Source of the DNA: Holophagaceae bacterium
GTDB lineage: Bacteria > Acidobacteriota > Holophagae > Holophagales > Holophagaceae
DNA: 19,275 nt
Direction of reading: 5' to 3'
Assembly (NCBI GenBank): GCA_025353305.1
Contig: JANXQX010000093.1
Span: 1-19,275 of the forward strand
Under the pieces are notes generated by a model that had not been told where the DNA came from, made no database searches, and worked only from the letters and a program-made list of their open reading frames with translations. The position numbers and the translations under genes are program-made. Shown piece by piece: positions 12,362 through 18,932 of this stretch (position 1 is the first letter of the stretch; each line of letters starts with the position of its first letter).

Positions 12362-12438
12362 CGGGGCGTGGCGCAGCCTGGTAGCGCATCTGCTTTGGGA
12401 GCAGAGGGTCGGAGGTTCGAATCCTCTCGCCCCGACCA
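12362..12438 (+). tRNA. tRNA-Pro (anticodon UGG)
   Basis: The cloverleaf is complete: acceptor CGGGGCG with CGCCCCG, D-arm with GCCTGGTAGCGC, anticodon stem TCTGC/GCAGA with loop TTTGGGA (anticodon TGG), T-arm GGAGG-TTCGAAT-CCTCT, and encoded CCA. A TAGACT -10-like box lies at 12347-12352, 9 bases upstream. The 3' part from nucleotide 26 onward is duplicated at 18879-18932, showing that this gene is the attachment site of the downstream element. The gene stays intact because the element end restores the 3' half. Confidence 0.97.
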
Positions 12439-12440
12439 AT
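12387..12440 (+). repeat. Left attachment repeat (inside tRNA-Pro)
   Basis: The 54 bases are identical to 18879-18932. They begin at tRNA nucleotide 26 (CATCTGCTTTGGG...), cover the anticodon arm, T-arm and CCA, and end two bases after CCA. The copies diverge outside: GCG versus AAC before, T versus A after. The anticodon stem-loop is a common strand-exchange core for tyrosine integrases. Confidence 0.95.
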
Positions 12441-12468
12441 TAGAACCTAGCACTTACAAGCAAAACGT

Positions 12469-12496
12469 AGCCGGGGAAACCCGGCTTTTTTCTTTT
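12469..12496 (+). terminator. Rho-independent terminator inside the left element end
   Basis: The stem AGCCGGG (12469-12475), GAAA tetraloop and CCCGGCT (12480-12486) are followed by a T-tract broken by one C. It lies 31 bases after tRNA-Pro and now ends the tRNA transcript, in place of the native terminator displaced to 18941. It insulates the element from host read-through. Confidence 0.9.
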
Positions 12497-12514
12497 GGGT
12501 CATCACTGGGTCAT
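12496..12514 (+). repeat. Left arm-type site, shared 19-bp repeat
   Basis: TGGGTCATCACTGGGTCAT occurs here and again at 18745-18763 in the same orientation. It holds two GGGTCAT words 11 bases apart, one helical turn. It lies 55 bases inside the left att repeat. This is the placement expected for integrase arm-binding or directionality-factor sites. Confidence 0.7.
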
Positions 12515-12937
12515 CATCTGGATTGATTTCAGGTGATGGATCAGACGGAGGATTCATTCTGATGGGGAAGGGTGGGGACCGTGTCTATCCGATTCTTAGA
12601 GGGGAGATCAAGCAGACTGAATACACCTCGCCCACAAACGGACGGAGCTTTTCTTCCGGGGGGGGAGTACCTTTTCGACAGCAAGGTGGGAGGGGTGGAT
12701 CAGGATTCTATATACCCACACGCCTGGTTTTGAAGCGATGGGCAACCCTTGAAGGTCTTTCGAAATTCAATCGCTTCGAGGCTGAGGTTTTCAACCATCC
12801 CTGTTGGAACTCACTCTCAAGGACAGAAGTTCTCCAAGAAATCTTCGGCGGGTGAACGGGGATTATTTTGTTTTCCAGTGTTTGTAGATTCAATTCATGG
12901 ACGACCAGTTGTAGGGCCGGGAGATATCCTTCCTCTC
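12515..12937. other. Gap of about 420 bases without a supported gene
   Basis: Short open frames exist, including one from 12523 to 12855 with a TTG start. None has a ribosome site, recognisable domain or normal composition, and the longest is Gly/Ser-rich with a run of eight G around 12658-12665. The stretch may be degraded coding sequence from a former cargo gene or the deleted upstream part of the SRAP region. Confidence 0.5.
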
Positions 12938-16559: not shown

Positions 16560-17330
16560 CTAGGCTGAACCGCGCAATATTTCGACTCTCTCGCAAAGAT
16601 AACGATGCATATGGAAGGCATGATCTTGGACCAAGGTTCCAAAGGATGGGAGCGTTGGAGAATGCTTCATTCTTCGCATTGACCTTTTCGCACTATATGA
16701 TGCCGCTCCCCAAGCAAAACTTAGGAACTTCTGAAAGTCTGAATGATTCGAACTAACCGAAACACCCCGTCCCGGTTTTTGCATTTCAGGCAACCCTTGA
16801 ACCGCGAACCAAAGTATCCAAAGCCACTCACAAAAACTCATTTCCGGCGTGCGCTCAATTCCAAGTTCTGAAAATGGTCCGATGGTGGAAGCCCCAGCTC
16901 CAGTTTTGGATGGGTTGGCTTCTGAAGCTTTCTTTACAGCTTCAAGACACCTCACAAGAAGGACAGGAATCCTGGGGATCTCACTGGATTTTGGATGCTG
17001 TTTAAATAGTTCACTCATTCCCGGTGTTCCAATTTCAAGATCGAACAATGTCCAATCTTTGATCATCCGTTCGAGAATCTCAGCACCTTTATCTAAATGA
17101 TCTCTGACTCCCTTCCCAGAGGTTATTTGTTTATTCTTGCCATAGTTATTTACTTCTTTTTTAATCCAGCTTGTTGCCTCCGCTCGATTTTTCGGAAGTG
17201 CTAGGCAAGTGATAGGAACCCAATCTGATCTTGGGATTGATTCCGGTTCCCAGCCCTTTGGCCAGAGCGTAGCCAGCGCCTTACTGATGGAATCATCGGG
17301 TTCAATCGGGGGGGTGGGTGGCCTATTCAC
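16560..17330 (-). CDS. Unknown protein translationally coupled to the integrase
   Basis: I do not recognise this 256-aa protein. It has a Pro-rich start (MNRPPTPPIEPDD), a charged helical middle (SWIKKEVNNYGKNK, DHLDKGAEILERMIKDW), an aromatic stretch (FCEWLWILWFAVQGLPEMQ) that could be a buried helix, and a basic C-terminal part (SYSAKRSMRRMKH). There is no signal peptide. Its GTG start at 17330 overlaps the integrase stop as ATGTGA, so the two are made together. This pairing suggests a role in integration, excision or its control, but only by context. Base composition is visibly more AT-rich than host genes. Confidence 0.78.
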   Translation of the reverse strand: MNRPPTPPIEPDDSISKALATLWPKGWEPESIPRSDWVPITCLALPKNRAEATSWIKKEVNNYGKNKQITSGKGVRDHLDKGAEILERMIKDWTLFDLEIGTPGMSELFKQHPKSSEIPRIPVLLVRCLEAVKKASEANPSKTGAGASTIGPFSELGIERTPEMSFCEWLWILWFAVQGLPEMQKPGRGVSVSSNHSDFQKFLSFAWGAASYSAKRSMRRMKHSPTLPSFGTLVQDHAFHMHRYLCERVEILRGSA

Positions 17331-18706
17331 ATTCCCACCAGCTTGGCCAAAGTCTCTCCAACTGTGTTCGCGGCTTGCCTGACTGGATCCTCTGGCGCGT
17401 GGGTATAGCGCTTTTCCGTGGTGCTTGGGTCTGAATGCCCTGCCAGTGTTGCCATCCAGCGGATAGGAACCCCGGCTGCAACGCCATAGCTCACGAAGGC
17501 ATGACGAAGGTCGTGAATGTGAATATCTGTAAGATCAGCGGAAGGTGCTTTCCCGCGCTTCCCTGCCTGTTTGTGGGCCTTCTGGCGTTCTTCTGTGATG
17601 ATCTCCCCGGCCCTCTCACGAACCGCCTGCCATGCTTTCTGGACACCTATGAGCGCTGCGGGGGTTGGTTTGGTTTCATCGGCCTTTTTGCGAGGGCTCC
17701 CAGGGAATACGAAGTCATTTCCTAAGAATTTGGGAAGGGCTTTGAGGAAAGCGAGGCTGTGGGTTGAGAGTTGAAGAACCTTCGGTTTTTGGGTTTGGCG
17801 CGAGGTTTTGTGGTCGGTCCAGGTAGCGGTCCCTTTCTCGTAATCAATGGCGGTCCATTTCAAACTCATCCCCTCACCGAGTCGGCAACCCGTTAGCACC
17901 AGGAACCGGAACAGGTTGAGGATGGCGGGGCTTCGTTTGTTCTCACTCGCGATGCGACCTGATTCTAGGTTAGCCATGGCATCCCAAAGGCCCTTGAGTT
18001 CTTCTTCCGTGATCAGTCGTTCGCGCCTGGTTTCGTCAAACCTCTCAATTCCACGGGCCGGATTCTCTACCTTCTTGGGGACCTTGCCCTTTTTCTGTCC
18101 CCATGAATAGAGAGCACGCAGGGTGTTGATGACCCTGTTAGCCGTGGTCACGTGGTCAGAGAGCGCCTCGTGGATCCTCTCCACTTCTTCGGAGGTCACT
18201 TTGGACACGCGCAGATTCCCGATTTCTGGGAGCACGTGCTTTTCCATCCAAAAGCGATAGTTCTCGACTGTGCGCGGCTTACGGGGACCCTTCTTCTTAG
18301 CTTTGTCCCCAGATTCAAGGGATTTCAGCCATTCCTCTGTAAGTTCCCTCACAGAGAGTTCGGCGCGATCAGCCTTCGCTTCAACCCTCGGGTCCTTTTC
18401 TTCGTTCTTGATGGCATGAAGGGTATCCAGGGCCTTCTTTTTTGCTGCCTCAGGCTGGAGCACTGGAAAGCTACCAATGGCTTTCTGTGCAAGCCTTCGA
18501 CCATCCCGCCATCGGACCACAAAAGACACAGTGCCGTTTGGGTAGGCAATGGCACCCCATCCCTTGAGTTCTTTGTCCCAAACCCATTCGCGGTTTCCGG
18601 ATTTGATGGCTCGTTTTTTAAGGACAAGCACGTTTCGCTTGTTGATCTTGTCTAGGTAGTTCTGTTGGGCCTCTCCGGGTTTATTTACTTTAGTGTTCCT
18701 GGTCAT
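17327..18706 (-). CDS. int: Tyrosine recombinase / integrase
   Basis: This 459-aa integrase catalyses site-specific recombination between the tRNA-Pro site and the element circle. An N-terminal arm-binding-like region (about 25-110) and a SAM-like core-binding domain (about 118-215) precede the catalytic domain. The catalytic set is complete: R275 (TGCRLGEGMSL), K300 (DHKTSRQ), H398 and R401 (HIHDLRHAF), H424 (LAGHSDPSTT) and nucleophile Y434 (KRYTHA). It is longer than the usual 380-420 aa, partly from a Lys-rich insertion near 340-390. GGGGAGG six bases before ATG 18706 fixes the start. GGGTCAT arm repeats occupy its promoter region, so the integrase or AlpA may control its expression. Confidence 0.97.
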   Translation of the reverse strand: MTRNTKVNKPGEAQQNYLDKINKRNVLVLKKRAIKSGNREWVWDKELKGWGAIAYPNGTVSFVVRWRDGRRLAQKAIGSFPVLQPEAAKKKALDTLHAIKNEEKDPRVEAKADRAELSVRELTEEWLKSLESGDKAKKKGPRKPRTVENYRFWMEKHVLPEIGNLRVSKVTSEEVERIHEALSDHVTTANRVINTLRALYSWGQKKGKVPKKVENPARGIERFDETRRERLITEEELKGLWDAMANLESGRIASENKRSPAILNLFRFLVLTGCRLGEGMSLKWTAIDYEKGTATWTDHKTSRQTQKPKVLQLSTHSLAFLKALPKFLGNDFVFPGSPRKKADETKPTPAALIGVQKAWQAVRERAGEIITEERQKAHKQAGKRGKAPSADLTDIHIHDLRHAFVSYGVAAGVPIRWMATLAGHSDPSTTEKRYTHAPEDPVRQAANTVGETLAKLVGM

Positions 18707-18732
18707 CTCTGCCTCCCCTTGTTGTTAAATCC

Positions 18733-18816
18733 GGGTCATCAGCTTGGGTCATCACTGGGTCATAATCAGTGATCAAAATCAGGCTAAGTCCGGAGACAAG
18801 GGAAAACAAGGGTCAT
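18733..18816 (+). repeat. Right arm-type sites and int operator region
   Basis: Four same-orientation GGGTCAT words start at 18733, 18746, 18757 and 18810. The middle two form the 19-bp repeat (18745-18763) shared with the left end. A 7-bp dyad ATCACTG-N9-CAGTGAT (18751-18773) overlaps them. The cluster lies between the int start and the right att repeat, where binding would both organise recombination DNA and regulate int. Confidence 0.68.
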
Positions 18817-18878
18817 TGACTTAATTGGTGTTAAAAAAGATCCATGGAGAAATTCGCAACAGATGGGAGTTCTAAAAC

Positions 18879-18932
18879 CATCTGCTTTGGGAGCAGAGGG
18901 TCGGAGGTTCGAATCCTCTCGCCCCGACCAAT
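18879..18932 (+). repeat. Right attachment repeat (tRNA-Pro 3' half copy)
   Basis: These 54 bases are identical to 12387-12440. The 5' part of the tRNA (acceptor 5' strand and D-arm) is absent, so this is not a functional gene. Chromosomal sequence, including the native tRNA terminator, follows directly. Confidence 0.95.

Follow-up and report, generated by a model that had tools for sequence, protein, structure and literature searches.

The window analysed here, a stretch of 19,275 nucleotides from a member of the Holophagaceae (Acidobacteriota), contains an element of 6,492 bp, the period of an exact 54-bp direct repeat, which is seated in the 3' part of a tRNA-Pro(TGG) gene. We regard it as a site-specific integrative element that belongs to a loosely defined group of small islands in tRNA genes of the Holophagaceae and that might travel as a hitchhiker in the particles of a helper phage, in the manner of the phage-inducible chromosomal minimalist islands (PICMI) of Vibrionaceae; for this reading as a whole we see about even chances. 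At the level of the sequence, it is based on the attachment (att) repeats, the motifs of the integrase, putative arm sites, the intact residues of a primase-polymerase (prim-pol) and the fact that no transfer genes were recognised. The members of the group pair an integrase with a prim-pol or with a protein sharing part of it, and some carry a helix-turn-helix (HTH) regulator as well.

The features by which an integrative element is recognised are present: a complete tRNA on one side, a displaced 3' fragment on the other and a tyrosine integrase between them. The complete tRNA-Pro, the host target gene, occupies positions 12362-12438 of the plus strand (ARAGORN; Rfam RF00005, 66 bits). The left att repeat (12387-12440, plus strand) lies inside it and is identical at 54 of 54 positions to the right copy (18879-18932, plus strand), the displaced 3' part of the gene; with one mismatch, the pair extends to 59 bp. 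The perfect repeats claimed in the original prediction are thus exact copies. The GC content is 52.2% inside the element versus 60.2% in the left flank (window 1-12386). An acidobacterial host had also been proposed, and in agreement with this the flanking gene at 11157-12341 has its five closest relatives, at 74-87% identity, in four metagenome-assembled genomes labelled Holophagaceae and one labelled Acidobacteria; the sixth, at 50%, is labelled Bacillota. For family assignment, Pfam and PHROGs were searched with ten open reading frames (ORFs) from the island. Among them no credible match to virion, relaxase or conjugation families was found, as the original prediction had maintained, and no phage structural or lytic gene was recognised, one weak terminase-small-subunit match of the HTH protein aside. 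Integrative conjugative elements of the actinomycete (AICE) or pSAM2-like type carry an FtsK-type transfer protein; no such family was found among the ten ORFs.

Five core genes, int, orf256, the HTH gene, orf127 and the prim-pol gene, are all located on the minus strand, and there is no divergent regulator pair. The integrase (17327-18706, 459 aa) matches PF00589 (E 1.6e-17) and PF13356 (Arm-DNA-bind_3), and the catalytic motifs R, HxxR, H and Y are present (GCRLGE from 273, HDLRH from 398, LAGH from 421, KRYTH from 432), in line with the complete enzyme proposed earlier. The GTG start of the following gene, orf256 (16560-17330), overlaps the int stop by 4 nt (GTGA), at the position of iolg in PICMI. 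Its 256-aa product is an orphan: in a search of 5.8 billion proteins (249 candidates scored) it found itself alone, and it shows no similarity to the gene at the same position of the related locus L047. The 63-aa HTH protein (16184-16375) is AlpA/excisionase-like, with a match to PHROG_66 (excisionase and transcriptional regulator) at E 1.1e-5 and a weaker one to PHROG_57, 'terminase small subunit', at E 0.003. It resembles the HTH protein of L047 (31% over 49 residues), which passes the cut-off of Pfam HTH_17. Between the HTH and prim-pol genes, at the position of up1 in PICMI, lies orf127 (15786-16169, 127 aa, ATG start), which has no PADLOC or NCBIfam match; the longer ORF 15786-16307 has none in Pfam or PHROGs.

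The prim-pol (14650-15813, 387 aa) consists of an archaeo-eukaryotic primase (AEP) domain, a helical middle and a C-terminal winged helix. Prim-Pol PF09250, matched above cut-off (E 4.3e-7), is the sole Pfam family found, which bears out the original assignment. The residues DxD, H and D, the catalytic ones of AEP prim-pols, are invariant in all 15 aligned sequences, the window included, in an alignment that leaves out partial matches from other islands. In fold comparison the protein is closest to the pRN1 primase, which stems from an archaeal plasmid, and a profile search of the PDB with the alignment gave nothing credible (best E 0.23). No helicase family was matched in the prim-pol or its neighbours in Pfam and PHROGs. 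In contrast, the pRN1 primase and the PrimPol of phage NrS-1 carry a helicase, whereas the window protein ends after the winged helix.

Putative arm sites of the integrase are located inside both ends of the element. On the left, GGGTCATCA occurs twice, 11 bp apart (12495-12518, plus strand); on the right, two copies of GGGTCATCA are accompanied by one near copy, GGGTCATAA (18733-18767, plus strand). The island holds four forward copies of GGGTCATCA, two inside each end, and one reverse copy within int, while 300 first-order random sequences gave a mean of 0.08 and a maximum of 2. Similarly, when two 250-bp end stretches were compared for each of the eight att-flanked related islands described below, a direct repeat of at least 11 bp was common to both ends in seven (L046, L050, L051, L073, L074, L075 and L076), where a rough estimate expects about 0.03 matches per island by chance; none of this length was found in the eighth, L052. 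The repeats vary from island to island and stand in tandem at 11-bp spacing in L046 and L051. From this pattern we infer that they are putative arm-type integrase sites. A hairpin followed by a T-run after the tRNA (12469-12486, plus strand) is a possible terminator that the island might give to tRNA-Pro. The argument is its position and not its number, as terminator-like sites are not in excess in the region (7 observed versus 8.7 expected from shuffles). By eye, a comparable hairpin follows the right att and is perhaps the displaced terminator of the host.

Relatives of the element are found within the family. When 93 genomes of the class were searched with a prim-pol profile, 19 places were found in 16 genomes, all within our list of 77 family genomes. 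The surroundings of these places were then screened in all 16 genomes for tRNAs, repeats and integrases. Eight att-flanked islands, from six genomes, contain nine of the places. Five further places have an integrase in the stretch and no att repeat that we could find (G072, G063, G068, G053, G057), and five have neither (G071, G045, G054, G036, G051), those of G036 and G051 adjoining tRNA-Pro. The att-flanked islands measure 1.9-9.7 kb, occupy five kinds of tRNA gene (Pro, Met, Arg, Asn and Phe) and each contain an integrase gene, some of them decayed. Their periods are 4,247 bp at tRNA-Met in Geothrix limicola (G015), a member of the Holophagaceae; 6,667 bp at tRNA-Met, 6,493 bp at tRNA-Arg and 4,339 bp at tRNA-Phe in G066, all three on one 4.5-Mb contig; 9,652 bp at tRNA-Asn in G017; 8,059 bp at tRNA-Pro in G055, with two prim-pol places in one island; 3,337 bp at tRNA-Arg in G027; and 1,948 bp at tRNA-Arg in G037. 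The prim-pol is matched over its full length in G072, G071, G063, G015 and the tRNA-Met island of G066, over the N-terminal half only in G027, and over middle and C-terminal parts only in the islands of G017, G037 and G055 and at tRNA-Arg and tRNA-Phe of G066. Pfam found no domain in the partial-match proteins of the four of these last five islands that were scanned (the G037 protein was left out). The integrases are shortened in the G027 and G037 islands, and that at tRNA-Arg of G066 is split over two frames. The original prediction had proposed to look for the same gene order at other tRNA genes; the order int-X-HTH-primpol does recur at L047, one of three loci (with L048 and L049) for which no att repeat was found, and int-HTH-primpol at the att-flanked L051. 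It had also named structural or conjugation genes in homologous islands as evidence for a prophage or conjugative remnant, and none were recognised in the ORF lists of the eight relatives (ten ORFs from five islands by Pfam, the others by eye). Their cargo comprises a restriction-methylase (L073), an Mrr-type endonuclease (L075), a CAAX protease (L046) and, by eye, lipoproteins (L046). Such cargo fits mobile elements that protect their host, and does not imply transport by phages. Across the phylum, 396 genomes were sampled, with four candidates scored per genome, and nine gave matches, five of which were already in the family list (G015, G066, G027, G017, G055). The weak partial matches of the other four, in proteins of 771-882 aa (G144, G156, G169, G331, outside the class list), and weak matches in proteins of 696-716 aa (G011, G054, G035) were not counted as members; G054 stays among the 19 places.

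Several further observations concern these relatives. Left of the tRNA-Met island of G066 (L050 806-4148) stand successive tRNA-Met att-like repeats, at 806, 2602 and 4116. They frame units of one gene each, Fic (1164-2510) and AAA_14/DUF4143 (2827-4086), which look like cargo that the same integrase has moved or left behind gene by gene. In G057, a gene with a LAGLIDADG match beside tRNA-Phe (L078 1295-2113) overlaps the integrase stop by 4 nt. A small stretch with the consensus NxxWLxxxPR...EI...LFP...ALxDxGF is shared by L046 (4878-5195), three ORFs of L048, L052 (7650-8270), the N-terminus in L076 and L078 (5273-5602); the alignment is weak (mean column identity 22%), and the stretch was not seen in the window. 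G063 shows the tRNA-Pro 3' pattern twice, on contigs C428 and C674 (L085, L086), one copy being without a complete tRNA, and no tRNA was found around the copy on C674. A separate contig of this genome (L049) carries int and prim-pol, possibly the pieces of a split island.

An empty attB in relatives, a further check proposed originally, was found in clean form for the Geothrix limicola island: its joined flanks match G056 unbroken over the junction at 250 (query 2-390 of 500, 85%), and G056 holds, as judged from this alignment, its clean and contiguous empty site. The candidates for the window itself, L004 and L005, are weaker. In L004 an unoccupied tRNA-Pro shares the left flank of the window (77%) and is followed by a tRNA-Arg 383 bp further on. 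L005 has the look of a flawless empty site (98% over 8-450 of 450). It was not accepted as demonstrating that the window's own species has an unoccupied site, as its flank identities are uneven and an assembly join via the 54-bp repeat would give the same picture. The tRNA-Pro pattern is present in 37 of the 77 family genomes, with two copies only in G055 and G063. The contig beyond it was computed for 29 single-copy genomes (8 of the 37 were left out) and extends for at least 6.5 kb in 18 of them, ending within 100 bp in 5. Contig breaks at tRNA-Pro would fit strain variation at this site; tRNA repeats alone can also break assemblies.

The plan of the element is similar to that of PICMI. PICMI115 has 6,110 bp (PICMI average 6.7 kb) and the gene order int, iolg (with a 4-nt ATGA overlap with int), alpA, up1, prim and up2 (PMC10803314). 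Similarly, the window island has about 6 kb and, in the same order, int, a gene overlapping it by 4 nt, an alpA-like gene, a small gene, a primase and an accessory gene; int, AlpA-like HTH and primase are co-located, and no capsid-remodelling gene was recognised. Excision of PICMI115 needs alpA, int and iolg, and full copy number needs prim; a virulent phage packages this island, which has no capsid-remodelling genes, in concatemeric form (PMC10803314), and packaging seems to require only a DNA motif (PMC10803314, PMC11389934). The unknown hijacking route suggested in the original prediction is therefore not required. The gene iolg is present in 21 of 35 PICMI subfamilies, and the PICMI model takes PF12728 as AlpA (PMC10803314), which the window HTH matches below cut-off (E 0.005). 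Unlike PICMI, which reside beside fis, the window island resides in tRNA-Pro. Its pRN1-like AEP prim-pol without helicase differs from their DUF3987/DUF5906 primase, and it belongs to the Acidobacteriota, whereas PICMI have Vibrio hosts and a demonstrated phage dependence (PMC10803314). As complete PICMI have not been found outside Vibrio and fis is the hallmark integration site, according to their authors (PMC10803314), we do not count the window island among the PICMI.

Small islands that combine an integrase with a primase are, as such, already known. Pseudomonas tmRNA islands share with the window a tyrosine integrase, AlpA, direct repeats at a tRNA-like gene and the lack of transfer genes; they carry defence cargo, and for one of them movement by a jumbo phage has been demonstrated (PMC12595487). 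However, they are far gene-richer (alpA being orf20, orf32 or orf39), their repeat measures 14 bp, and the term 'primase' is absent from the main text of that article (PMC12595487). Tycheposons and VEIMEs of marine bacteria are integrative elements that have been proposed as phage satellites of environmental bacteria, in other hosts (mentioned in PMC10803314 and PMC11389934). Among the matches listed, the open-access literature contained no description of Acidobacteriota satellites, prim-pol satellites or islands of Geothrix, Holophaga or Holophagaceae; this is weak evidence of absence, and agrees with the original remark that such islands are little described in this lineage.

If the parallel to PICMI holds, the HTH protein, and perhaps also orf256, would work with Int to excise the element as a circle; the prim-pol would prime copying of the circle, with a helicase borrowed from the host or an invading phage; the island DNA would leave in helper-phage particles without a packaging gene of its own; and integration in a new cell would restore tRNA-Pro. 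The gene families suggest the steps of excision and copying, and the match to PICMI suggests the helper step. More tentatively, and with chances that we put below even, it might be hypothesized that the islands form a new minimal phage-satellite group that hijacks infecting phages, with a PICMI-type core, a helicase-less prim-pol of archaeal-plasmid type, at least five kinds of tRNA targets, up to three islands per genome and restriction-type and lipoprotein cargo, restricted to the Holophagaceae among the genomes searched. This proposal stands weaker because in five of the eight islands the prim-pol match is only partial.

A number of results weigh against the reading as an integrative hitchhiker. 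Phage dependence of the island, like its putative excision and transfer, would follow by analogy to PICMI. The prim-pol had no match in phage records or in 72,556 plasmid records, and six scans of IMG/VR gave no relative of prim-pol, orf256, orf161 or int, using exact peptide patterns that reach close relatives only. PHROG_2, the large terminase, was matched in four of ten genomes searched (G066, with a stop codon in the match, G027, G072 and G063), so that a terminase was detected in only two of the six genomes with att-flanked islands. Nine islands (the window, L047 and seven of the eight att-flanked relatives, L074 being left out) were compared with three terminase-bearing regions from G066, G027 and G072, taken around the terminase matches and not annotated as complete prophages, and no common packaging-like (cos/pac) sequence stood out above background. 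The longest exact matches ranged from below 14 to 18 bp, equally long in unrelated pairs (best blastn E 0.047). The idea of cos/pac sites shared with resident prophages, put forward originally, was accordingly abandoned as support for prophage helpers, matches within one genome being no longer than those between unrelated pairs. With few terminases and no shared sequence, resident prophages are poor helper candidates; a virulent helper, as for PICMI, or another transfer route is possible. As to the element itself, the AlpA-like regulator of the original prediction is supported by PHROG_66, although the Pfam call is weak (HTH_17 E 0.005, 17.5 bits, under the cut-off of 27). Overlaps of 4 nt are common between co-transcribed genes of operons. 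Because of this, and because orf256 has no known relative, its occurrence at the position of iolg would point to a likeness of plan and would not prove descent. Among the eight att-flanked islands, the prim-pol match is full length in only two, half in one and partial in five, and in the decayed relatives L052, L074 and L075 the integrase is truncated or its frame is broken. The right flank of L004 is colinear with the window (63.5% over 159 bp) but lies inside a dispersed repeat, and is therefore no proof of right-hand synteny. L005, the best-matching empty site, may be a chimera of the assembly: on the right, 343 bp are 100% identical to the window and the match ends at the same base, while the left flank is 85% identical over 8.4 kb, which makes a join through the repeat possible.

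Some of these results would suit a non-conjugative, integrative plasmid-like element, moved by int and replicated as a circle by the prim-pol, which spreads by transformation, gene transfer agents, vesicles or conjugative elements. No phage-type gene was recognised beyond integrase and HTH, save a lipoprotein assigned to a PHROG without known function, the fold of the prim-pol is nearest to a plasmid primase, no sequence is common with terminase-bearing regions, and terminases are few in the carriers. However, the prim-pol is without match in the plasmid records, and the int-HTH-primase core and its order match those of a proven satellite (PMC10803314); we consider such an element rather unlikely. 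Judging by the title of PMC13376191, satellites are also moved by natural competence, and the phage and competence routes need not exclude each other. Alternatively, deletions might have reduced a formerly larger prophage or integrative and conjugative element to an immobile island with int and prim-pol as remnants. In the window, integrase and prim-pol both have their full length and keep their catalytic residues, the att repeats are identical over 54 bp, and islands with int and prim-pol recur at five kinds of tRNA, hardly to be expected from independent decay. These points make a decaying island improbable, even if an SRAP gene without its middle, the little coding sequence seen by eye in 12440-13250 and the broken integrases of L052, L074 and L075 would accord with it.

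The phage-inducible chromosomal islands (PICIs), the first alternative named in the original prediction, which spoke of a PICI-like satellite or a minimal integrative element, commonly span 10-20 kb, about 15 kb being typical, and have divergent regulators with int transcribed one way and xis/pri-rep the other (PMC6092414, PMC10111431). The window shares with them int, an AlpA-type regulator as in Gram-negative PICIs, a primase, a site-specific att and the lack of structural genes. Unlike in PICIs, the five core genes all point in one direction and include no divergent pair of regulators, the size is less than half of theirs, a pri-rep helicase/initiator is missing, the prim-pol being without helicase, and no terS or capsid gene was recognised beyond the weak match of the HTH protein (PMC6092414). 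Membership of the PICI family in the strict sense is thus very improbable, while the minimal integrative element of the original wording stands.

Should the islands be satellites, the minimal plan of the Vibrionaceae satellites would also exist in a distant phylum with a different primase, through convergence or as an old exchangeable module, and the least equipment for hijacking a phage would be an integrase, one HTH protein and one primase. The islands would also provide a handle on the phages and mobile elements of Acidobacteriota. With Geothrix limicola as a named carrier of a relative, the question is open to bench testing.

Besides the arm sites and the hairpin, a decayed SRAP gene and a lipoprotein gene are features that the original prediction had not mentioned. 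The SRAP remnant (12938-13246, plus strand; PF02586, E 3.7e-7) joins an MCGR start, assigned by eye, to the C-terminal end, the middle being missing; it covers only profile positions 158-209 of 214. The 139-aa lipoprotein (13257-13676, minus strand), presumed cargo with an LTGC lipobox by eye, matches PHROG_3716 of unknown function (E 3.5e-13). It has matches in 7 of the 77 family genomes, and the best homologue, at 55% identity, lies at L096 8124-8531 in G042, where no tRNA was found in the surrounding 17-kb stretch. A 161-aa protein (13904-14389, minus strand) with two zinc-ribbon-like CxxC motifs by eye has no Pfam match and a weak one, over 20 residues, to PHROG_6795, 'Lar-like restriction alleviation' (E 0.012); it is matched in 2 of the 77 family genomes, in one of them (L098) near a tRNA-Lys. 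A basic 65-aa ORF (14493-14690, minus strand), taken from the ORF list, overlaps the end of the prim-pol gene; its status as a gene is uncertain, and it has no Pfam or PHROG family match. PADLOC gave no match in the four cargo-type proteins of the window that were scanned, the lipoprotein among them.

Outside the element, a dispersed repeat after tRNA-Pro (window 18985-19126) begins with an inverted segment similar to the 3' end of a tRNA. Further copies are located at L004 11301-11459, at window 1656-2105 and about 83-130, and elsewhere in G005, G001, G002 and G003, and the repeats beside the tmRNA look akin to it by eye; it may represent a tRNA-associated repeat family of the Holophagaceae. 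Beyond the repeats downstream of the tmRNA lies a SoFic-type Fic gene (window 305-1453, minus strand).

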